Below are positions 1 through 17,776 of a stretch of 64,000 bases of DNA, in pieces. The position numbers were made by a program, and so were the translations under genes. This DNA comes from Nocardioides panacis. Its GTDB lineage: Bacteria; Actinomycetota; Actinomycetes; Propionibacteriales; Nocardioidaceae. The stretch lies in contig NZ_CP077062.1 of the NCBI RefSeq assembly GCF_019039255.1, positions 4,154,001-4,218,000 of the forward strand, read 5' to 3'. The notes under the pieces were generated by a model. That model searched no databases. It was not told the DNA's origin and saw only the letters and a program-made list of their open reading frames with translations. Position 1 is the stretch's first letter, and every line of letters begins with the position of its first letter.

Positions 1-441
1 TCCGTCGCGGTGAACTCCGGGCCATCCAATCGGCGGTCGAGGCCAATGGCGCATCGAACAGACCATCGAGGTAACCGCCGGTACCGGCGCAGCCAGGTCG
101 CAGTGGTCGCCAACGCTCGTTTGGTCCGTTGGCACCACCTGAACTTCGAAACCGACCGCCCTTCCTGGGTTGCCCGGTGCCCTGGTGGACCTGGACCGGT
201 GAAGGCATCGCCGGGCTCTGGGCCATCAGCCTCTACCGCATGAGCCAAGACTGACCGCTCGGAAAGCGCTTGCGCCCTCGCTGAGGTGAACCGGGAGGCG
301 GGCCGATACGTGGTTGCGCGCGGGGAGTCGCGAGTCGGCGCGGGGTGCTGTTGCTTGTCAGCACCGCAATCTGGATAGGACATCAGTGCCCTGCCGTGAA
401 CTCAGGGAAGTGCCGCGCGTGTTGTCGCCGCCGTCGATTTC
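1..441. other. Left edge, no confident gene
   Basis: No convincing gene is visible. A plus-strand frame from 75 to 254 has no start codon and ends in WTGEGIAGLWAISLYRMSQD, which could be the tail of a gene broken by an upstream indel. An overlapping frame (10-243) begins with ATG but is Arg/Pro-rich and resembles no family I know. From 255 to 441, downstream of the convergent leftward gene, I see no promoter or strong terminator hairpin. Confidence 0.35.
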
Positions 442-2676
442 CTATATAAACCCGACGGTCCCGAGAGCGTAAGCCAGATCGGGTGCGTCGAGAGGGTGAC
501 CGTGTTCAAGGCTCTTGATAGACAGCACGCCGTCGGAGGTGCGGTCTGGATGGAAGGTGGACCAGGTGTTGCAGCGCGGACAGTCACGACCTATTAGGTA
601 TGGGCGAAGCAGGTGCAGATTTCCCTGACCGTCAGCGACATACAAACTTCCTTGCTCAAGGTCGCTACGGGCTTGTTGCATATGTACGAAGGGCACGACT
701 GGGTGGTCACCCATGAGGCGTCGATAGGTGACATCGGTTATTCCCGAGAGGGAGTCATAGCGGACATCGCTGACGTGGATCAGCGGTAAATCCGTGAGGA
801 ACGAGGCACTCTGGATGAGCATCTGTAGGTCTGCGAACTCTTCCTCCACCATCGCACTGAACTCGGCGTCGGTGTAGCGGCGGAGATGGGCCTGGGCCTG
901 GCGACGGCTGCTGAGACGGCGTCGGGGGCCTGCCGTGGTCTCCGACAGCAGACTGCGAACTTCGCCCAGCGGCTGCTCATCGGGAAGTCGACGAAAGGCC
1001 CTACCAGAGATCTCTTCGAGGACTGCAACCCAGTCACCTAGTCCCGGACCCGAGCGCCCGGACGAGAGTTTCTCCTTGATCGCTTGGGTCGCTCCCACCG
1101 GGAGCCCCGCATGTCGCGCCATGACGAGACCGATCATGGCGCAGTAGCAAAGCAGCACCTCGTAGGTCTCCAGGATCGCTTCGTGGGTCTGCCGTAGATC
1201 TGCTCCAGTGCGAAGCGCTTCAAGAGTGCGCCAACGATATGCAATGGGATAGGGATAGCGAGTACGGACCCGATAGTCGGGATCGTCCACGAGTGCTGCG
1301 GCCTCACCCTTGAGACGGAGGGTTCTGCCCCGGTCAACTAGTCGGGCGCGCGCATCTCTTGATGAGTCGCTGTCGAACGTTGCGAGCAGAAGGCGCTCTG
1401 CCTCTCGCGCCCAGTCTGTGAAATGTTGTGAGGCGCTTGCCAAGTCGTCAAGTGCGGCGGTCAACGCCGCGTCTGGCTCTGGGAGCGGCAAGTCTCGCAA
1501 CGCCGCCGAGGTCAGTCTCATCGTGACGCCACGAGCAGCGGTGAGCGCCGCTGCGAGTTCGGATCGGAGGAACAGGACGATCATTTGCCGATGTGCTGTT
1601 GTCAGCGGACGTTTGGGACGTAGGGCGAGCACGCTTCGACCCACGACCGCAGGAAGGTCCAGTGCCTGCACCTCCGCAACTATGTGGCCCGTAGAGACGG
1701 ATGGACGCCTTATGGAACGAATGAGGAACTCCCCCACGCGGAGAGGTTCAGAAGCGCCCGCGTGTACCCACATCGTGTCTGGATCGATAGCCGCGATGGT
1801 GCCGTCCGCTAAGACATCGCGCCCGTCCAAGAACCGGGTCGCGCCCGGTTCAGTCGACTCGCACGGCCCGCCTACAAGCGCCCCGAGAGTCGGAAGGGGT
1901 GAAATGACGTGAAAGAGGTCTTCGAGTGCCTCGGTCGCTCCGAACCCCGCCAACTCGGACTGGCGGCGGAGAATATCCGGATCATGCCTTTCAAACGCCA
2001 GACTTTCACCTGGTTCCAGCGAGCGACGGACAACGTAGCCATGCTCACCGCGACCTCCCTCCCTCTTCAGGAGTCGTCGGAAGTCGTCGCGAACCGATTC
2101 CGGGTTCGGGCCTCGCGGTATGCGAAACATCTTCAAAGGTAGGTCTGGGCCTCCGTGACACAGCAGGAGAAAGCGCACAGACACTGACGTGTGCACTGAC
2201 TCAAGGGCACCCGAGGCTTCGATGACCATTCGGGGCTTCCACTGGGAGAGCATCTCGGCCCGAAAGCGTTGGCCACTGGCTGAGGTCAGCGTGGACATGG
2301 GGACTATGAGTCCAAGGAATGTCTCCCGTCCCTCGGGTGCATCGACAGATAAGGCGATGGACTCTTGAAGGTCAGGTGCCCGAGCAGACTTACCGTCGCG
2401 GTTCAGGGGAAGACCCCTTCCCCAGGGCGGGAAGAACAGCACCGGACCTTCGAGCAACGCGGCGTTCGAGAGAGAGGGAAGGTCTTCCAGAGGCCCCGAC
2501 CGTGAGTTCAGATCCTCCAAGGAGTTCGGGAGAGTCATACGCCCAACTCCGTCGGTATCCGTCCCGTTCACACGAAGTAGCGAAGGCACGCTGTCGGAGA
2601 ACTCCGCGAAAGTCTGAAGGATTAGGTCTGCGAAGAGGTTGCCCTGCCGTTCAATCCCGCTCGTGCTTGGGTGCAT
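442..2676 (-). CDS. Defence-island protein with degenerate N6-methylase half, TRD-like segment and Cys-containing C-terminal domain
   Basis: 744 aa, function not established. Residues about 75-175 read like the second half of a gamma-class N6-adenine methylase: FFPPWGRG sits where NPPY/NPPW normally lies, followed by a GLIVPMSTL strand and a VIEASGAL..VHTSVSVRFLLL stretch. No SAM-binding motif I (DPACGSG) is present, so catalysis is unlikely. Residues about 290-400 resemble a type I specificity-subunit recognition domain ending in RDLPLPEPD, then a helical segment. From about 470 come RYPYPIAYRWR and a helical domain; near the end CPRC (699-702) and KSLEHGH suggest metal binding. It follows the nuclease-like gene on the same strand after a 241-bp gap and may be cotranscribed. 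I infer a DNA-recognition or adaptor role in the island; the domain reading is by eye. Confidence 0.6.
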   Translation of the reverse strand: MHPSTSGIERQGNLFADLILQTFAEFSDSVPSLLRVNGTDTDGVGRMTLPNSLEDLNSRSGPLEDLPSLSNAALLEGPVLFFPPWGRGLPLNRDGKSARAPDLQESIALSVDAPEGRETFLGLIVPMSTLTSASGQRFRAEMLSQWKPRMVIEASGALESVHTSVSVRFLLLCHGGPDLPLKMFRIPRGPNPESVRDDFRRLLKREGGRGEHGYVVRRSLEPGESLAFERHDPDILRRQSELAGFGATEALEDLFHVISPLPTLGALVGGPCESTEPGATRFLDGRDVLADGTIAAIDPDTMWVHAGASEPLRVGEFLIRSIRRPSVSTGHIVAEVQALDLPAVVGRSVLALRPKRPLTTAHRQMIVLFLRSELAAALTAARGVTMRLTSAALRDLPLPEPDAALTAALDDLASASQHFTDWAREAERLLLATFDSDSSRDARARLVDRGRTLRLKGEAAALVDDPDYRVRTRYPYPIAYRWRTLEALRTGADLRQTHEAILETYEVLLCYCAMIGLVMARHAGLPVGATQAIKEKLSSGRSGPGLGDWVAVLEEISGRAFRRLPDEQPLGEVRSLLSETTAGPRRRLSSRRQAQAHLRRYTDAEFSAMVEEEFADLQMLIQSASFLTDLPLIHVSDVRYDSLSGITDVTYRRLMGDHPVVPFVHMQQARSDLEQGSLYVADGQGNLHLLRPYLIGRDCPRCNTWSTFHPDRTSDGVLSIKSLEHGHPLDAPDLAYALGTVGFI

Positions 2677-2917
2677 TCCGTCGTCCGATCTGGAAACTAC
2701 CGTCGTTACTGCGAGGACGCTACGGTGACAAGTCCGTTGGGGAGCAGAATCACGGGAAAGCCATTTTCGGGGCTGAATATGGTCTGCTTTTAGGTTGCAG
2801 CCCCTTAGCCGCCCGCGATGGGTTGCGCGCGGTCACCTCTCTAAAATCCATCAGAGCAGTTGGTCAAAGATCAGCCGACGAGGACCCAAGTCCTGCAGCA
2901 GGGACCCATGAACCCGG

Positions 2918-3946
2918 TCAGTGGGCTGCCGCCTGGATCGCCTTGCTGGAGCGCTCCGCCGCTTCGATGGAGGGCTCGGTCAAGAGTTGGTCGAGGAGCG
3001 CCCAGATACGCCGAGCCCGATAGATTTTCCCGGTCGGGATCGCCGGGACCGGGATGTCCGGGCCGAGGTCGTAGACCACGTGCGGGACACCGTCTGGTCG
3101 GGTGGGGGCTTCGGGGCCGCCTGGGATGTCGGGCCAGCGGTCGCCGAGCGAGGGTAAGACGGTCGAGGACACGACCCGGTTGACCTGCTGCAACTTCCCG
3201 TCCCACCGAAACCCCATCAGTACCGGTGGGCGTCGGGGCCAGTTCTTCCCGAACGGATGGAAATAGGCCCGCTCGGTGGTCACGTAATCCCGGAAGGTGC
3301 GGTCGCCGAACCGGTCCTTAGAGACCGAGACGACGTAGACCCACTGATCGTTGTACGCCCGCACTGCGGTGGCTCCCTTCAGGTAGGTCTGCAGTTGCGT
3401 GAGCCAGACTCGTTCTGCCCCGTTTCGGGTGTCGGCGAGCGCGCTGCCCAGGTCCGTGCGGACCTGGTCCCAGGGCAGGTGCCGGACCGGCACCCCGTCC
3501 ACGTCGATGGGGAGTTCGCGGGCGGCCCAGGCGAGCGAAGAGTCCGAAAGGGAGACCAGCAGGGGGACGGTGACCCCGGCGAACCGTCCGACGTAGCGGG
3601 TCAGTTGTGCCTCGCCCGGTTGCAGCCAGCCCTTCTTGGCCTCGACGATCAACAGCACCTCCGTGCCGGTGTCTGAGGTCAGGCGCAATTCCAAGTCGGT
3701 GCGGCCAAGGTCGTCGGGCGTCTCTAGGGCGACCTCGACCTGGGTTGGGTCCCCGGGGAGCCCGAGCCGGGACCATAGCGCTCGCCGCAGCGCCGGGGAG
3801 ACGGAGAGGGTCCAGCCCAGCGAGGCTGTCAGGTCGACCTCGTCCCGACCGATGAGGTCGAGGACCGAGGTGATCTCGTGCTGGTACCGCATCAGCGACT
3901 GTCCCGACGGGTGGGCTGGGGGATGGCGGAGTAGGGGCTGAGGCAT
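2918..3946 (-). CDS. PD-(D/E)XK nuclease-like protein of the defence island
   Basis: 342 aa from ATG 3946, chosen because GAGGGGACC lies just upstream; the frame stays open another 59 codons. Residues about 20-60 (MRYQHEITSVLDLIGRDEVD and what follows) look like the N-terminal helices of PDDEXK-fold proteins, with a candidate acidic residue at Glu24. The core is TDLELRL (Asp84) followed by VLLIVEAKKGW (Glu102-x-Lys104), a normal D-x(15-20)-E-x-K layout, so catalytic residues appear intact. The C-terminal 200 residues match nothing I recognise and may bind a partner or DNA. It is divergent from the helicase operon across a 409-bp gap. I infer a restriction-type effector nuclease; a structural PDDEXK fold without activity is the main alternative. 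Confidence 0.6.
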   Translation of the reverse strand: MPQPLLRHPPAHPSGQSLMRYQHEITSVLDLIGRDEVDLTASLGWTLSVSPALRRALWSRLGLPGDPTQVEVALETPDDLGRTDLELRLTSDTGTEVLLIVEAKKGWLQPGEAQLTRYVGRFAGVTVPLLVSLSDSSLAWAARELPIDVDGVPVRHLPWDQVRTDLGSALADTRNGAERVWLTQLQTYLKGATAVRAYNDQWVYVVSVSKDRFGDRTFRDYVTTERAYFHPFGKNWPRRPPVLMGFRWDGKLQQVNRVVSSTVLPSLGDRWPDIPGGPEAPTRPDGVPHVVYDLGPDIPVPAIPTGKIYRARRIWALLDQLLTEPSIEAAERSSKAIQAAAH

Positions 3947-4355
3947 GGTCCCCTCAGTATTGGTGCCGCCAGCCTGGTTCGCAGAAGAACACTTCGTCCG
4001 CTCCGTCGCGAGGATGCAGTTGGCTGACGGATGGGGCTCGGCAACGAAGCCTCGTTTTGCCGCTTTCTCGATCCGCCATCCACCCCGGGACACCTCGTTC
4101 ATCACGAAGACGTGTCCGCTCACATTGCGCCAGCGAGCCGCCCGAGCCGAGTCGCGTCGGCGGGCAGGCCCTGGAGTCGTCCGGAGTGCCGGAAAATGCT
4201 ACGACCTGTCCATGTGGACAAGTACCGTGCAACCAGTTAAGAACTCAACGGGGGCGGTTCGCCGGAGTGGAAGTCACAACTTCGGTGAAGCGAGAAGGTT
4301 GCCGATATCCCTCCAAGTGCTAAGCCGGTAGATGGAGCGAGGGACAAGGGAACTG
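3947..4355. other. Divergent intergenic region with a possible DUF2188-like remnant
   Basis: This 409-bp gap separates the leftward nuclease gene from the rightward helicase operon and must hold promoters for both. On the minus strand, in frame with and upstream of the nuclease start, about 4123 down to 3950 encodes a segment with GHVFVMNE and RGGWRIEKAAKR, weakly reminiscent of DUF2188 (a short domain with a GGW-K core). It lacks a convincing start and may be a remnant. No clear -35/-10 pair could be assigned by eye. Confidence 0.3.
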
Positions 4356-7300
4356 ATGGACGTTTTCAAGGTGCGCGACGAGGTCATCGACGACTACCGC
4401 GCGTTCACTCAGGGCTTCCTCACCATCAGGGACACCGAGATCCGCGAGAAGGTGGAGTCCGACATCGACTCCGGCCTTCTCTGGCCAGAGCCGTGGCTGG
4501 CTTTGAACCCCTCCTTCGAGACCGGCGGGTCCGTAGATGACCTGGTCGACCAAGGTGCCCTTGCCGAGACGACCGCGAAGGTGTTCCGAATCAAGGAGCA
4601 CGAGGGGGGACCCGGGCGCTCGACCCATCACCTTGCACGCACACCAGCGTGATGCGCTCGCGGTGGCGGCGTCGGGCGAGTCCTATGTCCTTACGACCGG
4701 CACGGGGTCGGGTAAGTCGCTGACCTACTACATCCCCATCGTTGATCGGATCGTCCGTGAGGGCTCTGGGAAGGGCGTTCGCGCGATTGTCGTGTATCCG
4801 ATGAACGCGCTGGCGAACAGTCAGTTGGAGGAACTGAAGAGGTTCCTGCATCGAGGGTTCGGTGGAAAGTCGCCGGTGACGTTCGAGCGCTACACCGGAC
4901 AGGAGAGCCGGGAGAAGCGCGACGAGATCCTCAAGAACCCGCCGGACATCATCTTGACCAACTACATGATGTTGGAACTGATGCTGGTCCGTCCCCAGGA
5001 GCGGAAACTCATCACCGCGTCCAAGGATTTGTCGTACCTCGTGCTCGATGAACTCCACACCTACCGTGGGCGGCAGGGCTCCGACGTAGCGATGCTGGTG
5101 CGTCGGCTCCGGCAGGCCACGGGGGCGGCGAACATCCAGTGCATCGGTACTTCCGCCACGCTCGCCGGACCCGGGACATTGGCCGAGCAGCGGATCGAGG
5201 TTGCCGCCGTCGCGTCTCGTGACTTCGGTGTCGAGGTCAAACCCACCTCAGTCATCGGCGAGACTCTGCGCCGGGCTACGAATGGAGCGGTCGACAAGGA
5301 CGCGCTTCGCCAACGGATCCATGCTGCGCCGCCAACCACCTACGCCGACCTCCACGTCGACCCCCTTGCCGTCTGGATCGAAGACACGGTCGGCATCACC
5401 GAGAAAGAGGGCAGGCTCGTCCGGGCACAGCCACGGACACTGGAGCAGGCCAGCCGCCAACTCGCGGACCTCACCGGGGCTGACGCTGGGGAATGTGCCG
5501 CCGCGATCCGCGCGACCCTCATGGCTGGCGCAGGCGACGACGCGGTGGACCCGTCCACGGGCAAGCGCCTGTTTGCGTTCAAACTGCACCAGTTCATCAG
5601 CCGAGGTGACACGGTGTATCAAACCCTTGCCGTCGGTGAGGACCGCTGGTTCACGACCAAGAAGCAGATGTTCAAGCCGGGCGACCCTGGGAGCCTGCTT
5701 TTCCCGCTCGCGTTTTGCCGTGAGTGCGGACAGGAGTACCTCCTCGCTGCGCTCGATGACTCTGCCGGGTACCCGAGGTTCGTGCCCCGTGAAGAACGAG
5801 ACCAGTCCGGGGAGAAGAAGACCGGGTACCTGTTTCTGTCCGCGAGCGAGTCGTGGCCCGAGAAGTCCGACACTCTCGCCCTTGCCGACCGGGTCCCCGA
5901 AGCATGGGTGACGGGGACCGGCGACGAACGACAGATCGCTGCCGACCGTCGCGACCTTCTGCCTGACGTGAAGCAGGTCGACCGCAGCGGAGCCATCGTG
6001 GATGCCGGTGGTGTCTCGGCGGCGTACCTGGACAAGTTTCGGTTCTGCCTCAACTGCCGCACCGTCTACGAGTCCGCTCGCGGTAACGACTTCGCGAAAC
6101 TCTCCTCGCTGGGGTCCGAAGGGCGTTCTTCGGCGACCACCGTGTTGTCCGCTTCCATCGTGCGCGCCCAGCAGAAGGAAGTCGGCATCGCTGACGCAGC
6201 CCGCAAGGTGCTGACGTTCACCGACAACCGGCAAGACGCCAGCCTGCAGGCCGGACACTTCAACGACTTTGTTCTAGTGGGCCAGACCCGTGCCGCACTG
6301 CATCGCGCTGTTCGTGACCATCAGGACAAGACGGGAGGCCCGCTAAATCACGAGGACCTGCCCGCCGCCGTGGTCGCCGCGCTCAACCTCGACCCGACCG
6401 AGTACGCCAAAGAACCGGGTGCCCGGCTGACCGCTGAACGCGCCGCGAAAGCGCTACGGGAGGCGGTCGCCTATCGCGTGTACGCCGACCTGTCACGCGG
6501 CTGGCGCATCACCATGCCCAACCTTGAAGAGACGGGCCTGTTGCACGTCGCCTACGCCTACGTAGGTGAACTCTCCGCCGACAGCACCAGGTGGAGCAGC
6601 GACACGTGGTCCCAGATGCCCGACGCGCTCGCCGCTGCCTCCCCGGAATCGCGTCAGAAGATGATCGTCGCGCTCTTAGACGAGATGCGTCGCAACCTAT
6701 GCGTACGCACTTCCTACCTGACCGAAGAGGGCAGCGAGCGCATCAAGAGCCTGTCCGAGGCGCACCTCATCTCACCCTGGGCACTCACAGACGACACCCC
6801 GGCCCGGTCTGGCACCGCGTACCCCCCGGTCCCGTAGGAAGGGCGACCGATCCGTTACCGACCTATTCATCTCCGGCTTGTCCTCCTACGGGCGGTGGCT
6901 GCGGAACCGGTCCGGACTCAAAGCCCTCGACGGCACCAAGTTGTCGGTCCAAGACGCCGAAGACACGATCCGCGCCATTCTCGAAGTGCTCAAGACCGAA
7001 GGGCTCGTGGAGAAGGTCGACGACCGGCCCGGGGAAGTCCCCGGCTTCCAGATCAACGAAGCCGCCCTGCAGTGGGCTCCCGGCGACGGCAGCCGCCGCA
7101 CCGTAGACATCCTGCGCGTCACCACCGACGACGCCGGAGGGCGCGTCAACCCGTACTTCCGCGACTTCTACCAGACCCTCGCGACCAGTCTCGGCGGACT
7201 CACAGCAGCCGAGCACACCGCACAGGTCCCAGCCCAAGTCCGTGAAGGACGCGAGGAAGCGTTCCGAAAGGGTGACCTTCGGGTCTTGTACTGCTCACCC

Positions 7301-9586
7301 ACGATGGAACTCGGCGTCGACATCTCCACCCTGAACGCCGTCGGCATGCGCAATGTGCCGCCCACACCCGCCAACTACGCGCAACGGTCCGGACGGGCAG
7401 GTCGTGCCGGTTCCCCAGCACTCGTGGTGACCTATTGCGCCACCGGATCCGGGCATGACCAGTTCTACTTCCGCCGCTCAGACCTGATGGTCTCCGGACA
7501 GGTCGCGCCACCGAGGCTGGACCTGTCCAACGAGGACCTCATCCGTGCGCACGTACACGCCATCTGGCTCGCCGAAACCGGACAGGACCTACACGGGGCG
7601 ATGCAAGACATCGTTGACCTCGATCAAGACACCCTGCCGTTGCTCCCGTCCATCGCTGCCTCGCTTGCCGACGAGGGAGCCAAGAAGCGGGCCGTGTCCG
7701 CAGCGAACGCAGTGCTGTCCGGCACGAGCGAGGTCACGTCGGCGGCGTGGTGGAAGCCCGGCTGGCTAGAAGACGTGGTGCGGCAGTCCCCAAGCCAGTT
7801 CGACCGGTCCATCAACCGGTGGCGCGGCCTGTACAAGAACGCCCAAGCCGAGGCACTCCGACAGACCGAGATCGCCAACAACCTGTCAGTCACGCCCGGT
7901 GAACGCAACGCCGCCAAAGCCCGTCGCCGCGAAGCCGAGTCACAGATCGAGTTGCTGCGCGGCGGAGGAGACGACCGCAACCAGTCCGACTTCTACCCCT
8001 ACCGCTACCTCGCCTCCGAAGGGTTCCTGCCGGGCTACTCATTCCCAAGGCTCCCACTCGCGGCTTTCATCCCAGCCGGTCGCAAGACCAAGGCCGGGGA
8101 AGGCGACTACGTACAACGGCCCCGGTTCCTCGCCATCACCGAGTTCGGGCCGGGCGCGTTCATCTACCACGAAGGTGCCCGCTACTCCGTACACCGTGTA
8201 CAAATCCCGGTCGGCTCCGACCCGTCCGGTGGACCGCTCTTGGAATCCGCGAAGCGATGCACCGCCTGCGGCTACCTCCACAAGCCCTCCGGCGACGGCG
8301 ACGGCCTCGAAATCTGTCAGCGGCCCGGTTGCGGCGCTGACCTGGGGGCTGGCCACGTCGGGAACCTTCTGCGCATGCAGACCGTCATCACCCGCCGCCG
8401 CGACCGCATCTCCGCCGATGAGGAAGAACGACACCGGTCCGGATTCGACATCGAGACTGCTGTCCGCTTCGAACCGCACGGGGAACGGTCAAGCCACACC
8501 GTCGTCACGGTCCGTGACGCCGCTGGTGATGTCGTCGCCACGCTCACCTACGGCGACACCGCCCTCATCCGGCGTATGAACATCGGCTTTCGCCGCCAGA
8601 AGGTCAAAAACGGGTTCCCGCTCAACCTCCAAGACGGACGGTGGGGAAAGAACGCCGACACCCCCGAGGCACAGGCAAAGGAAATCGACGCCGGGGGAGA
8701 GTCCGTCTCCGCAGGCAAAACTACGGCTCTCGTGATCCCCTACGTCGAAGACCGCTGCAACGCGCTCCTAGTCGAGTTTTCCAACCACCTCTCGGATGAA
8801 CAGAAGATCGCCGTCCAATACGCGTTGAAGCGCGGTATCGCCATCGCGTTCCAGTTGGAAGACAACGAACTCGCCGTCGAACCTCTACCAAGCCCTGCCG
8901 ACCGCAACCTGCTGTTGTTCTACGAAAACAGCGAAGGCGGAGCAGGGGCCCTGCGCCGGTTCGCCATGGACACCCACTCCTTCCGCAACGCGGTCACTGA
9001 AGCACTCGACGTCTGCCACTTCAATCCCGAGACCGGCGAAGACCTCAACCACGCGAAGCACGCCATCCGTATCGGCTCCACCAAGCCAGAGCGCTGCGAA
9101 CGAGCGTGCTACGACTGTCTGCTGTCGTACGGCAACCAGCCCGACCACCTCGCGCTCGACCGACACAAGGCCAAGGACGTCCTGGTGGGTCTCCGCGACG
9201 CCACCCTCGAAGTCGGGGCCGGTGGACAGTCACGACAGGAGCAGTACGAAACCCTCCTCGCGGAGTCCACAACCAGCGCCGAAACGCACTTTGTGGAGTG
9301 GCTGTTCAAGCGCGGCTACCGGCTCCCGACCCATGCCCAGTATCGAGTCGCGGACGCCGAAGCCCTGCCCGACTTCGTTTATGCCGATAGAGACGTCCGA
9401 ACCGCCGTCTATGTTGACGGACCTGTCCACGAATACAGCGACGTGGCAGCACGCGACGCCCAAGTGGAGAAGCGACTGCTGTCCAAGGGCTGGTTCGTGG
9501 TCCGGTTCGACATCAAGAACAACACCGCGTGGGACCAGCAGTGCATGGACCTGGTCGACGTGTTCGGACAAGGAGACACTCTGTGA
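4356..9586 (+). pseudogene. DEAD/DEAH helicase-DUF1998-nuclease fusion, DISARM DrmA/DrmB-like, two frameshifts
   Basis: Conceptual protein of about 1742 aa after removing one G from the run at 4604-4609 and one C from 6822-6827. ATG 4356 (MDVFKVRD) follows GGGACAAGGG and fits the family better than ATG 4332. Visible in order: Walker A TGTGSGKS (~112), LDELHTYRG as motif II (~230), GTSATLAG motif III, Cys pairs FCRECG and FCLNCR, TFTDNRQDA motif [12 protein letters not shown] motif VI (~1010), the DUF1998/MZB region ending in [15 protein letters not shown], and a C-terminal segment with LPDFVY and [10 protein letters not shown] like DUF559/Vsr-type nucleases. DrmA is a helicase and DrmB carries DUF1998 in DISARM; here both are in one chain. 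It would be an ATP-driven translocase of phage defence. The stop overlaps the next start (GTGA). Read literally, the product is split into three pieces. Confidence 0.82.
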
Positions 9587-12464
9587 CGACCACCCCGGTG
9601 GCATCCCGGTTCACCGAGGGGACCCTCGTGGCCTCCCGCGACCGGGAATGGGTCGTCGTCGACGCATCCGACCCGACGTTCCTTCTCGTCCGTCCGCTGG
9701 CGGGCGCTGATGAGGACATCTCGGCACTCATGCCTGCCCTCGAAGAGGTCACCGAGGCCACCTTCCCGCCTCCCACCGTGGAGGACCTCGGGGACGGGAC
9801 TGCCGCCCGCTTGCTGCGCGACGGTCTCCGGATCGGATTCCGAGCCTCCGGGGGGACCGTTTCGCAGCCTCGCCGGGCTCGCTGTCACCCCACGTGCCTA
9901 CCAGTACGTGCCGTTGCTCATGGCGCTCCGCCAGGGCGGTGACGCGGTACGGCTCCTCATCGCGGACGGCGTCGGAATCGGCAAGACCGTGGAAGCCGGA
10001 CTCGTCGCCGCCGAACTCCTCGCCCAAGGAGAGGCCAGGGGTCTGGCTGTGCTCTGCAGCCCGGCGCTGGCTCCGCAGTGGCGCGAGGAACTGCGGGTCA
10101 AGTTCAACATCAACGCCACCCTCGTCCTGCCGTCGACCGTGAACCGGCTAAACCGGGGGCTGCGCATGGGAGAGTCCCTGTTCGACCGCCACCCTTACGT
10201 CGTCGTGTCCACCGACCTCATCAAGCAGCGCAACTACCGCGACGACTTCGCCCGAACTTGTCCCAACCTTGTCATCGTCGACGAAGCCCATACGTCCGTC
10301 ACCGCTGGGGGAGCGAACTCCCGCAGCGGCGCGACCCTGCGTCACCACCTTTTGCAGCGACTCGCCGCCGACCCCAAGCGGCACATGCTGTTCCTCACCG
10401 CCACACCTCACCAGGGTGACGACCAAGGCTGGAAAGGCCTCCTGGCGCTCCTCAACCCCGAACTGGAGCACCTGCCGTCCGACCTGTCCGGTGCCCAACA
10501 CGACGACGCCCGACGCGAACTCGCCCGCTACTTCGTTCAACGGCAACGCGGAGACATCGCTGACTTCCTTGAAGACACGGTCTTCCCGGATCGGGCCACC
10601 ACAGAAGAGACCTACAAACTGCACCCCGAGTACCGGGCATTGCTGGACCGGGTCCTGGACTATGCCCGCGAGACCGTCAGCGACGACGCCATTGCAGGAA
10701 CCGTCCGCCAGCGGGTCCGCTGGTGGTCCATGGTCGCCCTGCTCCGCTCGCTCGCATCCAGCCCCGCTGCTGCCGCGACCACGCTGCGGAACCGTGCCGC
10801 CACCGCCGAGGCAACCACCGACCAGGAAGCCGACGAGATCGGACGCAACCTGATCCTTGACGAGGACGACGACGCCTCCACCGATGCAGACGACATCGCC
10901 CCCGGCGCAGACGACACACCCACTGGCGCTCCCGCCACGTCAACACGCCGCAAGTTGCTGGAGTTCGCCCGCCAGGCCGACGCACTGGTCGGCACGCAGA
11001 AGGACACCAAACTCGCTCGCCTCACCGAGATGGTGAAACGGCTTCTCGACGAGGGCTACCAGCCGATTGTCTTCTGTCGGTACATTCCCACCGCTGAATA
11101 CGTCGGTGAACACCTCCGCAAGGCGCTGGCGAAGACGGCTCGCGTCGAAGCGGTCACAGGCACCATGCCTCCCGAAGCGCGAGAAGCAGCCGTCGCAGAC
11201 CTCGGCACTCACGACGGCCCCCACGTCCTCGTCGCCACCGACTGCCTGTCCGAGGGCGTGAACCTGCAGGATTACTTCAACGCCGTCGTCCACTACGACC
11301 TCGCCTGGAACCCCACCCGACACGAACAGCGAGAAGGTCGCGTTGACCGATTCGGACAACGCGCCGAGACGGTCCGTGCGATCACCTACTACGGGGTCGA
11401 CAACCCCGTAGACGGCGTCGTCCTCAACGTTCTCATCCGCAAACACGAAGCCATCCGCAAGTCCACCGGCGTCTCCGTGTCACTCCCCGCCGACTCCGCA
11501 CTCGTGATGCAAGCCGTCTTCGAGGGCCTCATTCTTCGACGCGGCGACGACGCCCAGGAAGCCCTTTTCGACCTCCCCGGCTTCGACAGCGAAGAAGAAC
11601 TCTTCGACACCTGGCAATCCACAGCCGAACGCGAGAAGCGGTCCAGGTCCCGGTTCGCCCAACACGCCCTGTCTCCGGCTGCGGTAGGCGAGGAACTCAA
11701 GGAGGTCCGTGCCGCCCTAGGTGGACCAGCCGACGTGGACAACTTTGTTCGCAACGTCCTCGTTCGCCTCGGAGCGAACCTTGTCGAAACGGGGGGAGGG
11801 ATTCACCGCCACCGTCGCCACCCTCCCGAGGGCGCTTCGCGACATGCTGCCCATCAAGCCCACCGACGCGACCATCACCTTCGTTCGCGACCTCCCGGCC
11901 CCCGTCGGTGCCCATGTGCTGACTCGCACCGCCCCCGCCGTCGAGGCGCTGGCTTCCTATGCCCTCGACGCAGCGTTGGACCCGCTCCTTGCCCCGGAGT
12001 TCCGTCCCGCCCGGCGCTCCGGCGTCATGCGTACCACCGCCGTCACCGACACCACCACACTCCTGGTGACTCGCATGCGGTTCCACGCCACGATGCCAGG
12101 ACGGGACAGAGACGTTCCCATGGTCGTAGAAGAGGCACACCTCGCCGCGTTCACCGGTACTCCGGATAACCCGACGTGGCTCAGCGACGAAACCGTGGCC
12201 GACCTGTTGAAGGCGACCCCCGCCGGGAACATGCCTGAGTCGATGGGGAAGGCATTCATCACCCCAACGCTCGATGCCCTCAATCAGGGGCATCTGTTCG
12301 CCCACCTGTCAGATGCAGCCGATACAAAGGCACAGGAACTCGACGACTCGCATCGTCGGGTTCGACAAGCCGCAGGAACCCTCGTCCGTGGGCTCCGGGT
12401 CACCGCCCAGAAGCCCGTCGACATTCTCGGCGTCTACCAGTTCATCCCAGGAGGAAACGCATGA
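9583..12464 (+). pseudogene. SNF2-family helicase, DISARM DrmD-like, two frameshifts
   Basis: Conceptual protein of about 959 aa after removing one G from 9850-9855 and one G from 11791-11796. GTG 9583 overlaps the preceding stop, and AAGGAG lies upstream. Visible: TPRAYQYVPLLMAL (Q-motif-like) and DGVGIGKTVEAG (Walker A, ~135), VDEAH motif II (~230), LFLTATPHQGDDQGW motif III, VFCRYIPTAEYV and ATDCLSEGVNLQ in the second RecA lobe, and REGRVDRFGQRA motif VI (~585). An acidic Asp/Glu-rich linker lies near 425-455. These are SNF2/RapA-type features, and DrmD of class 1 DISARM is this kind of protein. The last 250 residues are a family-specific tail. Stop and the methylase start overlap in ATGA, so the operon is translationally coupled. 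Frameshift 1 removes the entire helicase core from the native frame if real. Confidence 0.82.
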
Positions 12465-15400
12465 GTCGCCTCACTAGCGGTGGCGCGACTTACCCGACCA
12501 TCAATACGGTGGGAGCGCTCCTCCCACCCGATCTGCTAACTCGGCTCGCCAACAGCGAACTCGAACACCTCAAGCCCAGCACCTACGGGCTCCCCGAGTC
12601 CTTCACGCTTCGGCAGGCAGCCGCCCGTGCATGGGAACTGTTGCTCCCCACCTACCGGTCCTTCCAGACGCGACTAGCCGCAATGACGGACAGCGACCCC
12701 GCCACCGTCGTCACCCGCGACCGGTGGACCAGCGTTCTCCTCCGCGAACTGGGCTACGACCTCACCACAATCCCGAACATCCAGATCGAGGACGACACGT
12801 TCGACGTTCGCTACCTCGACGGCCACGTCCCAGTTCACCTGCTTGGCTGGAACGTCGACCTCGACAAACGAGCCTCCACCAACGTACGAGGAGCATCCCG
12901 TAGCGCTCCGCACTCGCTCATCCAGGAACTACTCAACCGCACCGACAAGCACCTATGGGCCATCCTCACCAACGGCAAACGCCTCAGGCTCCTGCGCGAC
13001 AACATTGTCATGGGCCGACCCGCCTACATCGAATTCGACCTCGAAGGCATGTTCACCGGCGAACAGTTTGCCGACTTCGCCATCCTCTACGCACTCGCCC
13101 ACGCCACCCGACTCCGCTCCGAACAGCCTGCGGACTGCATCCTCGAACAATGGCGAACCGCCGCCATCAACGACGGCACCCGAGCGCTCGATCACCTCCG
13201 CGACGGCGTTGTCGAAGCCCTCAAGAGCCTCGGTACAGGCTTCCTCGAACACCCAGACAGCGCCGCCCTCCGCGACCTCCTCCGGGGTAACCACGGTGCG
13301 AGCGACGACTACTACCGCTGGCTCCTCCGCCTTGTTTACCGGCTAATCTTCCTGTTCGTTGCTGAGGATCGCGATCTGCTCCACCCTGAAGACACGCCCA
13401 CTGAAATTCGTCGGCGGTACGCCGACTACTTCTCCACACAGCACCTGCGCGAACTTGCGACTCGTCGCCGGGCCGGACGACACACCGACACGTGGGCAGC
13501 CCTCCGCCTTGTGTTCGACGCACTCGGGAACGACGGCGAACCCGGCCTCGGGCTGCCCGCCTATGGATCCGACCTCTTCAATGCAGGCTTCATCGGCACC
13601 CTGAACGACGCCAAGATCAGCAACGAGCGGCTAATGGACGCGGTCCGTTCGCTCTCCCAACTTCCCGACCCGGGGACTGGCACGCTGCGACCCGTCGACT
13701 ACAAGAACCTTGGCTCTGAGGAACTCGGATCCGTTTACGAAGCACTACTCGAATACGTCCCGACAGTGGGAGACGACGGGGCATTCAACCTAGGCGTGCA
13801 AAGTGGGAATGCCCGCAAGACCAGCGGCTCCTACTACACGCCCACGGAACTCGTTGAACTCCTCCTCGACGAGTCACTCGACCCAGTCCTGGACGAGGCG
13901 AGCGCGGCAGAGAACCCCATCGAGGCACTCCTCGCGATTACCGTGTGCGACCCCGCATGCGGCTCCGGGCACTTCCTCGTCGCGGCAGCGCGACGAATCG
14001 CTCGCCGACTTGCCATCGCGCGCACTGGAGACCCCGAACCCACCCCGGATGCCATGCGAGAAGCCCTCCGAGAAGTTGTCGCGCACTGCATCTACGGCGT
14101 CGACCTCTCGGACCTCGCCGCAGAACTCGCCAAGGTGAGTCTCTGGCTCGAATCGCTGACACCAGGGAAGCCGCTCGCATTCCTAGATGCCCACATCAAG
14201 GTCGGGAATGGCTTCATCGGAGCATCCCCCCGCGCTACTCGCTGAAAACATCCCGGACGACGCATTTACGCCGGTGCACGGAGACGACCAACCGTGCGAC
14301 ATCTGCTCCGCAGCAGGCAGCGCGAAGTGCAACCACAAATGGTCATCGATAGTCCGAAAGCACAATCAGTCGGAGCGCCAGAACGCTGGTGAGCAAACGC
14401 TGTTCGGCGTCCACGGTGTGCGCATCGACAACGCCGCACTCGCCGCCGCACTCGACGACATCGAACACCAGAATGCTGACGACATCGCTAGTGTGCGCGC
14501 CAAGGCAGACGCGTGGCGACGCCTCGACAACAGCACCGAACTGCGCCGCGCACGAACCGTGGCTGACGCGTGGTGTGCCGCGTTCATGTGGACACTCAAT
14601 CGTGACGCCATCCAGCCAATCACCCACGAGGGTCTGCTCGCGCTCCAAGGCGACCCTGACCTCGTACCTCTCGCCGCCCAGCGAGAGGTCGTTGCACGCC
14701 TCGCTCGCAAGTACCGGTTCTTCCATTGGCACCTTGAGTTCCCACAGATCTTCCGAGCCACCGGTGGTGCGGAGGCGGGCACGCAAGGTTGGTCCGGTGG
14801 ATTCTCGCTTGTACTTGGGAACCCGCCGTGGGACCGGGTGAAGGTCCAGGAACCTGAGTTCTTCAACGCTGCCGGACGGCCCGACATCGCCAAGGCGACT
14901 GGAGCCAAGCGGCGAAAGATGATCGAGGCGTTGTCTGCGGAGGATCCGCCACTCTTCGATGCTTACTCAGCAGCGCTGCAGGAGGCCGAGGCGACCGCCT
15001 GCTTCCTTCGCAATTCTGGGCGTTTCCCGCTTGCGGGCGTTGGTCGCGACATCAACACATCCTCGATCTTCGTGGAGTCCTCCAGCCAACTAATCGCCCC
15101 GACGGGTCGGTTGGGGCAAGTGGTCCCATCGGGCATCGCCACGGACGACACAACGAAGAATCTCTTCGCCGAACTGTCAGACGGGCGGCTCGTCACGCTG
15201 CTCGACTTCGACAACCGGAAGGGGATCTTCCCTGCGGTTCACTCAGCAACGAAGTTCTGCGTTCTGATAGCCAAGGGAACGCGTGACAGGATGGCGAAGG
15301 CGCGTTTCGCGTTCTTCCTCCAAGAGCCCAAGGAAGCCAAGGATCCGTCCCGTTGGATCCCCATGAGCGCCAGCGACATCGCTCTTATCAACCCCAACAC

Positions 15401-16397
15401 GCGGACCTGCCCCATCTTTCGGACGGTCCGACACGGCGAAATTGCCCTGGACGTTTACCGAAGGCACGCCGTGTTGTCCGGGCCAGAGGCAACGCGCGAA
15501 CCGAACGGATGGGCGTTCACCACGCGGCCTGGCCTTTTCCACATGGGCAACGACTCCGCCCTGTTCACGGAAGATGCCGACGCCCCCGGTAACGTCCGCC
15601 TGTACGAGGCGAAGATGGCTCACGCTTACGATCACCGCTGGGCAAACCTCGCGGGCGTCTCCGAGGCCCCAAATCGCAGCGACCCCAAGGATTTGGCTCA
15701 ACCACGCCATTGGGTCAGCCAACGCGAGGTGAAGCGTCGGATCGGTGCCGAGGTGCCCTTCCTTACAGGCGTTCGTGATGTCACCAACTCCACGAACGAA
15801 CGCACCTTGATTCCGCTGGTGTTGCCGCCAGAGGGGGTCGGACACAACATCACGCTCTTCCAGGTCCGCACCCACGCCCTATCGCTTGTGGCTTGCTTCG
15901 CCAGCCTGGCGTGCGACTTCATGTCCCGGGTGAAACTGGGCGGAACACACATGAGTGCCTTTGTGCTTCGCCAACTTCCCATTCCCTCACCGCAGACCTT
16001 CGACGAGCCCTGTCCATGGGATTCGCAACTGACCCTCGCAGAGTGGATCCGACCACGCGTCCTCGAACTCCTTTGGACCGCCGAGGACCTCAACGGACTG
16101 GCGATGAGCGAGAACCTGTCAGGGCAGCCGTACGTGTGGGATTCGGAGCGCCGTCGCACGTTGCGAGCCGAACTCGACGCCGCCTTCATGCATCTCTACG
16201 GACTGCGTCGCGACGAGGTTGACTTTGTGCTCGACGACTTCCCCATTGTGCGCAAGGCCGAAGAGAAGCAGTACGGACGGTTCGCGCTGAAGGAACTCAT
16301 CCTCAATCTCTACGAGGACATGGCGCGGGCTTCGGCAAGCGGACAACCCCTGAAGTCTTCGCTTACTCCTCCGCCCGGCGGCGGGCCTCAAAACTAG
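12461..16397 (+). pseudogene. Eco57I-like N6-adenine DNA methylase, DISARM DrmMI-like, one frameshift
   Basis: Conceptual protein of about 1311 aa after removing one C from the run at 14226-14231. An N-terminal domain of about 450 residues (VLLRELGYD, RTDKHLWAILTNGKRLRLL) is followed by the SAM-binding motif I CDPACGSGHFL (~496) and the catalytic motif IV LGNPPWDRV (~786), then a long target-recognition region (FVLRQLPIPSP, TAEDL). This is the Eco57I/BREX-like gamma class that methylates adenine in a specific site; in DISARM such an enzyme marks self DNA. The frameshift lies between motifs I and IV, so the literal sequence encodes no complete methylase: the first piece ends at 14245 and the second is open from 14187. 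Loss of self-marking beside an active nuclease would be harmful, so the defect is either an artefact or accompanied by loss of the helicases. Confidence 0.83.
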
Positions 16398-16539
16398 GCA
16401 AGACGTGGTTCTGTCCCCAGGTGTGCCAGTGAGCCGTCCAATCGTCCGCGTCGCAGTCGAGTAGCGGAGCGGGTGGGGCAATGCGTGCTAGTCCTGAGCA
16501 CGAGGACGAGTGTTGAGGGACCTAGGAGAGGCCATAGGC

Positions 16540-17517
16540 ATGCCGTACGACCTGAAGGACCGACTCGTAGTCGGGATCGCATCAAGCGCGCTCTTCGACC
16601 TCGCAGAATCGGACAAGATCTTTCGCACTCAAGGCGAACAGGCATACCGGGACTACCAGGAAGAGAACCTCCATACCCCGCTCGCCCCGGGGATGGCGTT
16701 CTCCTTTATTCGACGACTCTTGTCGATGAACGACCTGAGCGACGACCTGAGCGACCCGCTCATAGAGGTGATCGTCATGTCACGCAACGACCCAGACACC
16801 GGTCTCCGAGTCATGGAGTCCATCGAACACTACGAACTTGCGATCACCCGGGCGATCTTCATGCAAGGAAAGGCCCCCTACGCTTACATCCCCGCCCTCA
16901 ATGTCTCCCTGTTCCTATCCGCCGATGAAGCAAACGTGCGCGAAGCCAACCATGCGGGCCACCCAGCAGGACGCGTCCTGCCCTCCGCCATGGTTGACGA
17001 CGATGACGACCATGACCTCCGCATCGCCTTCGACTTCGATGGAGTCCTTGCAGACGATGAGTCTGAACAGGTCATGCAACGAGGCGGGCTCGCCAACTTC
17101 CACGAACACGAGACCGAAGAAGCGGTCTCGGCCCACAACCCAGGGCCGCTCCAGCCGTTTCTCCTCAGGATCGCTCGCATTCAAGAGCGCGAGCAGGCCC
17201 TTAGGCTCAAAGATCCGACCTACCGCGTACGCCTTCACGTCGCCATCGTCACCGCACGAAACGCGCCCTCGCACAAGCGAGCCATCGGCACCCTCAAGCA
17301 ATGGGGGGTGATGGTCAACGACGCGTTTTTTCTCGGCGGTATCGACAAGAACGCGGTCATCAGCGTCCTACGCCCTCACATCTTCTTCGATGACCAGCGA
17401 GGTCATCTTGAATCCACCTCCGAGTCGGCCCCATCCGTTCACGTGCCCTTCGGAGCCCTCAACGAGAAGACCGAAATGTGGGAACCAAGCGACGAACCGG
17501 CGGAGGGAGACGACTAA
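16540..17517 (+). CDS. Cytosolic 5'-nucleotidase (PF06189 type)
   Basis: 325 aa from ATG 16540 (MPYDLKDRLVVGIASSALFDL-like start); GGAGAG lies 9 bp upstream, better than the in-frame ATG 16510. The family hydrolyses nucleoside 5'-monophosphates. The N-terminal SSALFDL..SDKIF and the central FDFDGVLADDESE (HAD-like DxD motif) are its signatures, followed by VTARNAP and HIFFDDQ, the later catalytic acid and Lys/Asp motifs. Length is usual for the family and the frame is intact. It is the last gene of the island, 142 bp after the methylase on the same strand. Nucleotide-depleting enzymes occur in other antiviral systems, so a role in defence is possible, but a cargo or housekeeping role is equally open. 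Confidence 0.75.
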   Translation: MPYDLKDRLVVGIASSALFDLAESDKIFRTQGEQAYRDYQEENLHTPLAPGMAFSFIRRLLSMNDLSDDLSDPLIEVIVMSRNDPDTGLRVMESIEHYELAITRAIFMQGKAPYAYIPALNVSLFLSADEANVREANHAGHPAGRVLPSAMVDDDDDHDLRIAFDFDGVLADDESEQVMQRGGLANFHEHETEEAVSAHNPGPLQPFLLRIARIQEREQALRLKDPTYRVRLHVAIVTARNAPSHKRAIGTLKQWGVMVNDAFFLGGIDKNAVISVLRPHIFFDDQRGHLESTSESAPSVHVPFGALNEKTEMWEPSDEPAEGDD

Positions 17518-17776
17518 GCGTGACTCTCGACGCCACCGGACACTTACGGAACGATTGCCTCCGTCCTAGCCAGGCGGGTCTACGGTCGACTGGTCAAAGG
17601 GCACTTCGAAGATCTGTGGCACGTCACCGAGACTACCGATTTGGCCTGTGGATAAGTGACACGACCTGTCACCGGTGACGCCCTGTGTCGCGACCGGTGA
17701 CAGTCTGGCGTCGCCCTACACCGCGACCCCGCGGGCGACGTCGAGGTCCTGGTGAGTCGAGTCCGGCCTGGTACGC
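17518..17776. other. Island/chromosome junction, no gene
   Basis: Gene-free stretch where composition changes from the less GC-rich island to very GC-rich chromosome. It contains clustered TGTCAC/GTGACA half-sites (listed separately). No tRNA, integrase or obvious attachment repeat is visible here. Confidence 0.5.
17656..17703. promoter_or_regulatory. Cluster of TGTCAC/GTGACA inverted half-sites
   Basis: GTGACA (17656-17661), TGTCAC (17667-17672), the 12-bp palindrome GTCACCGGTGAC (17668-17679) and ACCGGTGACAG (17693-17703) lie within 48 bp. CTGTCACCGGT (17666-17676) and ACCGGTGACAG form an 11-bp inverted repeat with 16 bp between the arms. Overlapping dyads of one half-site look like a multi-site operator, but no adjacent gene has an obvious promoter here and the binding protein is unknown. 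Confidence 0.4.

Follow-up and report, generated by a model that had tools for sequence, protein, structure and literature searches.

A predicted ARMADA Type I anti-phage operon carried by a Tn7/Mu-like transposon in Nocardioides panacis

ARMADA is a phage-defence system described as combining a YprA helicase with a BrxHII-like helicase and with a methylase of the PglX-like sort, and its Type I is reported as abundant in Actinomycetota (Bell et al. 2025 preprint, PMC12458937). An earlier paper from the same group describes a DISARM-like system associated with McrBC (PMC11090510). We analysed a stretch of 64,000 nucleotides from Nocardioides panacis (NZ_CP077062.1, positions 4,154,001 to 4,218,000; ‘the window’), in which three coupled genes appear to form an operon of this kind; loci and genomes used for comparison carry the handles L and G. 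The operon shares with published Type I the order of YprA helicase, BrxHII-like ATPase and PglX-like methylase, the Vsr-type C-terminus of the helicase and one extra Cys module (PMC12458937). It differs in being borne by a transposon with a 5′-nucleotidase gene and two orphan genes, in having deposited frames that are broken at homopolymer runs, and in standing without McrBC, unlike its relatives L024–L026. The Type II system of E. coli ATCC 8739 (L138) has homologues of the helicase, ATPase and methylase of the window (the C-terminal piece of the SNF2 gene excepted), but there the order is ATPase, methylase, helicase and a UvrD-type helicase, ArmD, whereas the window has the helicase first and no ArmD. 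Nor does an ArmD of the RelE-GajB-like sort adjoin the operon, which is followed by the 5′-nucleotidase gene and then the transposon end.

The reading that accounts best for these data, and to which we assign a probability of about 0.9 on sequence evidence, is a joint one: an ARMADA Type I anti-phage operon, carried as transposon cargo, recorded with run-length errors, and acting in the manner proposed below. The kind of system is already known from the 2025 preprint, and DISARM enters only in kinship. A reading of the window made earlier from its letters (the sequence-only reading) had pointed to ‘DISARM-related arrays’ without naming a match; the pointer was right, ARMADA being the name, and domain content, order and linkage all match the published Type I.

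The three genes (Table 1) are coupled by overlaps, GTGA at 9583–9586 between helicase and SNF2 genes and ATGA at 12461–12464 between SNF2 and methylase genes; open reading frames, domain matches and overlap positions agree with the place, order and coupling first given for them. In the operon Pfam recognises DEAD and Helicase_C domains, the DUF1998 zinc site (MZB), SNF2 and an N6/Eco57I methylase domain. The pieces of each gene have homologues in L024–L026, with 34–56% identity, and chance reading frames were rejected on this ground. The helicase is 44–51% identical to these relatives (tblastn) and is a single frame in each (1745, 1724 and 1741 amino acids (aa), respectively), so that helicase, DUF1998 and nuclease tail lie in one chain, as first described, in intact copies too; the SNF2 gene is likewise one frame (936, 936 and 970 aa). 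By comparison with the E. coli Type II proteins, the helicase is homologous to ArmC, the SNF2 piece 9587–12169 is 26% identical to ArmA (E 1e-40) and the N-terminal part of the methylase is 25% identical to ArmB (E 2e-25). Among PADLOC models, the ATPase matches DpdE (681.8 bits) and DrmD (264.8 bits), and the PLD_Helicase model is also among the matches listed for the SNF2 frame, its strongest part lying over the helicase region; the first piece of the methylase matches DrmMI (189.9 bits) and the second type IIG models.

Table 1. Features of the window, in window coordinates.
Feature	Position	Strand	Remarks
revB (744 aa), divergent orphan gene	442..2676	-	degenerate methylase/specificity-like, by eye only
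revA (401 aa), divergent orphan gene	2918..4123	-	PD-(D/E)xK-like motif, by eye only
YprA-family helicase (ArmC-like)	4356..9586	+	RecA1, CxxC pairs, RecA2, DUF1998/MZB, C-terminal Vsr/DUF559-like tail; frame pieces 4332-4652, 4537-6837, 6722-9586, with start at 4356 and stop at 9586
G run	4604..4609	+	helicase frame change
C run	6822..6827	+	helicase frame change
MTES_1575/DUF559 (Vsr-like) nuclease region	9254..9583	+	PDF...VDGPVH motif kept; alignment A5, Pfam on 16 members
SNF2/RapA-type ATPase (BrxHII/DrmD/DpdE/ArmA-like)	9583..12464	+	GTG start at 9583; frame pieces 9583-~9850, 9587-12169, 11721-12464
G run	9850..9855	+	SNF2 gene frame change
G run	11791..11796	+	SNF2 gene frame change
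PglX/DrmMI/type IIG-like adenine methylase (ArmB-like)	12461..16397	+	ATG at 12461; C-terminal target-recognition-like region; frame pieces 12461-14245, 14187-16397
C run	14226..14231	+	methylase frame change
5′-nucleotidase	16510..17517	+	PF06189, full length; PADLOC candidate PDC-S08; between operon and transposon end
Element right end	17647..17721		terminal and subterminal inverted repeats; TGT...ACA end at 17720

Linkage of the three genes is widely conserved. Across 197 genomes, the source genome included, the helicase had a match at E <1e-70 in its own genome and four others, with the full operon in G159, G189 and G130 and the methylase placed before the helicase in G191; six genomes of the same genus had no helicase match at that threshold. 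A contig search with a single window protein returned nothing, and a profile from alignment A1 was used instead, the relatives discussed below being the best 80 of at least 591 found in at least 595 public-genome stretches. The SNF2 gene lies downstream on the same strand in 73/80 of these loci and the methylase gene too in 65/80, while in five cases the contig breaks off no more than 300 bases past the helicase. The order helicase, SNF2, methylase was kept in every one of the 59 loci that extend 6.5 kilobases (kb) or more past the helicase, a threshold that narrowly omits L044 (at 6.0 kb the count is 61/62); in one of the 59, L092 from Micromonospora sp. ATA32, helicase and SNF2 form a single frame of 3170 aa. 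Given this conserved linkage, the genes are not scattered among related genomes, the outcome that the sequence-only reading had named as fatal to its proposal. McrB follows the operon in 12/51 loci with at least 9.9 kb, and McrB-like and McrC genes lie past the methylase in 3/3 of L024–L026; McrBC was not found beside the window operon. A Type I-like operon is also seen on plasmid MP1 of Deinococcus radiodurans R1 (L135 9514–22488), where the methylase is annotated as two pieces, its C-terminal part split by ISDra3, and a gene of the McrB family lies farther along.

Two CxxC pairs, candidates for the beta-barrel zinc module that Type I would have there, are invariant in the N half of the helicase (45 sequences aligned, read from sequence rather than fold) and one four-Cys set preceding DUF1998 is invariant in 41 sequences; these invariant sets are in line with the one inserted domain described for ARMADA Type I (PMC12458937). 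The tail had been called DUF559/Vsr-like, and the call held: of 16 aligned C-termini searched with Pfam at E up to 0.1, 14 matched MTES_1575, 13 DUF559 and only one Vsr; the matches in the window itself (E 0.0016 and 0.0017) fall under the curated cut-offs. MTES_1575 and DUF559 we take to be members of the PD-(D/E)xK nuclease clan. Judged by eye, two of the 16 aligned relatives, L066 and L083, have a degenerate-looking Vsr-like active-site motif at the helicase C-terminus. In a tree of 39 rows, the window falls within a group of 27, apart from E. coli ARMADA II ArmC and Druantia III DruE (support 100/97), and inside that group adjoins copies from Mycobacterium and Rhodococcus (99/95). The rows cover 21 of the 80 loci, with L015, L017, L019, L021 and L022 left out and L058 bearing an X at one stop, and the group labelled ‘3gene’ also takes in L094 and L110, for which the genes downstream are unseen.

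By its sequence, the operon is cargo of a 27.1-kb Tn7/Mu-like transposon inserted just after dnaB (G000 C1 4144619–4171720, corresponding to window 1–17720 plus L028 2620–12001). A block of low GC content (60–68% versus ~74%) extends from near dnaB, to the left of the window, as far as ~17.7 kb. Inverted repeats starting TGTAGGGCGAC bound the element. Its ends also show subterminal repeats and a duplication of 5 bp (CCGCG), and the left end lies 9 bases past the dnaB stop. The left part holds a TnsB-type gene (match to solved TnsB, E 2.4e-5), a gene for a MuB-like ATPase (E 0.0026) and further genes without a family. A 303-aa gene next to TnsB, conserved beside TnsB in G084, is a candidate TnsA or TniQ/TnsD, as is a 401-aa gene; neither has a Pfam match, and the 303-aa gene has no significant match in the PDB. 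Six genomes of the same genus align on the dnaB side (one in two pieces) but not in the sequence beyond, so that no empty site was seen among them.

TnsB relatives occur in 2/197 genomes, the source genome being one. In G084 (L148 4826–11689 and 14035–15905), relatives of TnsB and its neighbour lie near a set of Wadjet-like genes, of which Pfam named JetD, and near what by eye is a MATE-type transporter gene. No transposon ends with a duplication were found in G084.

The deposited operon changes frame five times, across all three genes and always in the same sense, and the sites coincide with all five homopolymer (G/C) runs of six or longer that it contains; one of the five, early in the SNF2 gene, becomes visible only by comparison with a relative. 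As a control, 20 stretches of 20 kb (400 kb) from the same genome were surveyed for runs whose coding phase was clear and which had open frame to either side. G/C runs of at least six broke the frame in the operon's sense in 16/32 cases, with one more in the opposite sense, compared with 8/297 runs of five (Fisher p 5e-13 versus runs of at least six), 22/1250 runs of four and 110/5895 runs of three. A looser control that included gene boundaries pointed the same way (25/53 runs of at least six in one sense and 7 in the other; 38/761 random positions; 18/391 runs of five). In the 80 loci of the relatives, a same-sense break occurred at 1/106 runs of at least six, with 3 in the opposite sense. 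Five control sites in core genes were also checked by Pfam, piece by piece. At L128 (12945) a GGDEF domain is split at the run into 1–79 and 81–160, a clear case; at L132 (12535) the run is flanked by two domains of what we presume to be one oxidoreductase type, and at L131 (17056) a DJC28 domain is cut at 46 of 70 and no match follows, both consistent with a break. One-sense breaks at about half of the testable runs in these 400 kb indicate that the record most likely carries run-length errors. The breaks in the operon are most probably of this kind, error being favoured over decay, so that the cell itself probably has an intact operon.

The mode of action proposed here follows from the domains and from the mutant data on the E. 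coli Type II system (PMC12458937). The methylase, with the SNF2 ATPase, would mark host DNA. The YprA helicase may then load on DNA of phage that is entering or replicating, where this DNA is single-stranded or has been processed, by analogy with its relative DruE, which engages 3′ single-stranded DNA (PMC13192584); to judge from domains and relatives, the RecA core and DUF1998 canopy would move it along the DNA and the C-terminal Vsr-type nuclease would cut. If Type II is a guide, phage growth would be blocked directly and the cell not killed. In E. coli Type II, infected cells remain viable, Walker-motif mutants of ArmA and ArmC and an NPPW mutant of ArmB lose protection, and an ArmB mutant in the S-adenosylmethionine (SAM) motif loses it only in part (PMC12458937). 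A 2026 review places ARMADA with the methylation-based systems for which it gives the mechanism of restriction as unknown (PMC12904381).

Several points weigh against the joint reading. The mode of action is carried over from domains and E. coli Type II data, and methylation as the self mark is an assumption. The Type I assignment itself draws on sequence, order and the published description, whereas the lineage is defined by folds, a BrxA-like insertion after RecA1 and a MarR-like domain. The C-terminal piece of the SNF2 gene shows no similarity to E. coli ArmA (E 1.9), a DrmA-named model (PDLC02572) scores 172.5 bits on the SNF2 gene, and a PDB search of the nuclease tail against solved Vsr gave nothing significant (E 1.5). 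In two loci, L044 with 6.3 kb past the helicase and L110 with 2.8 kb, neither SNF2 nor methylase follows it. In the tree, the outgroup branches are long, the tool flags false joins, and the published Type I reference is not among the rows. As to the frame breaks, the Pfam check does not decide at 2/5 sites (L123 and L116), and the operon is broken at 5/5 runs compared with half elsewhere, so that genuine decay is conceivable.

A decayed ARMADA Type I operon, with real breaks and a system dead in this strain, draws on that excess and on the density of damage, five breaks in 12 kb that spare none of the three genes. However, the same one-sense breaks are found genome-wide at runs of at least six, core genes included, and between the breaks of the operon the frames are open and conserved motifs kept, with hardly any such break in the relatives; we consider decay unlikely.

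The sequence-only reading had taken the locus for a rearranged, fused DISARM-like system, that is, a class 1 variant with drmA and drmB joined and the order altered. The published account does give class 1 DISARM both SNF2 and methylase genes in common with ARMADA (PMC12458937), and a helicase plus DUF1998 is a further likeness. The proposed check with hidden Markov models, run here with those of PADLOC, bore this out in part, as the DrmD and DrmMI models match the SNF2 and methylase genes at the scores given above and the SNF2 gene is also hit by the single model named after DrmA. The helicase, however, is best matched by DruE (163.5 bits in the N half and 170.7 in the C half, versus 22.5 and 34.1 for DrmA), a lead of more than 130 bits in each half that contradicts its description as drmA-like. 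In the relative L024, the ATPase is not DrmD by the NCBIfam model, since it scores 309 bits against a cut-off of 610. Class 1 DISARM has a PLD-type drmC and a gene order other than that of the window, and there the DUF1998 module is a separate gene, drmB, rather than part of the helicase chain. The window has no separate drmB, and none of the ten window frames scanned with Pfam had a PLD domain, in keeping with the absence of drmC first reported. Its order is instead that of published ARMADA Type I, kept wherever the relatives had room. What stands of the original proposal is the relatedness to DISARM and the look of a defence operon; rearrangement and fusion of DISARM do not, and on helicase models and linkage we reject a DISARM variant as very improbable.

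Still less probable is a Druantia Type III-like system with extra genes. DruE supplies the best PADLOC helicase models for the window, and ARMADA helicases are described as most similar to those of Druantia (PMC12458937). DruE, however, is paired with DruH rather than with SNF2 and methylase genes (PMC13192584), and DruH was not among the PADLOC matches listed for the window frames and seven upstream genes, on which ground the candidate was rejected. It is the SNF2 and methylase genes that are conserved instead, and the tree separates the window from E. coli DruE, though on a long branch. Phase variation, in which the runs would be contingency tracts switching the system on and off, could explain why runs carry the breaks in all three genes, but it is the least credible alternative and was rejected, as the same pattern occurs in unrelated core genes, the relatives break at 1/106 runs, and six bases make a short run for phase variation.

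The ARMADA Type I operon shares the element with other cargo. No relative of the 5′-nucleotidase was found in any of the 80 ARMADA loci, and the gene is not conserved with ARMADA. revA has no family match and the best Pfam match of revB (E 0.07) is under the cut-off, although revB has a 37% identical relative adjoining ARMADA in L033 (20036–21898); a PHROGs search with the three neighbour genes returned nothing. It is conceivable, though doubtful, that the whole is a composite immune transposon inserting just after dnaB, in which ARMADA Type I would be partnered by revA and revB while the 5′-nucleotidase trimmed nucleotide pools during infection.

Among the relatives, 7/64 loci with a match have two C-terminal target-recognition-like modules after the methylase. 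Such loci include L024 (14486–16086), L025 (14481–16225), L053 (11078–12600), L066 and L067; five of the seven look clear, and of the other two one is interrupted by an insertion sequence. Such doubling is possibly an arrangement for switching specificity.

PADLOC 2.0.0 reports the operon only as separate DruE, DpdE/DrmD, DrmMI or type IIG matches, and it was reading of the raw sequence that found ARMADA. The broken frames, moreover, would lead an annotator to call the system dead, whereas the genome-wide control favours sequence error. Defence genes are already known as cargo of Tn7-like elements (Benler et al. 2021, PMC8649781), and the element in N. panacis resembles those described there in its TnsB-type transposase, MuB/TnsC-type ATPase, arrays of end repeats and defence cargo, but differs in its insertion just after dnaB; a term search found no mention of dnaB in the main text of that paper or of PMC10293859. 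Prophage-like elements are reported to carry ARMADA Type II (PMC12458937). For ARMADA Type I, the predicted transposon would provide a concrete route of spread.

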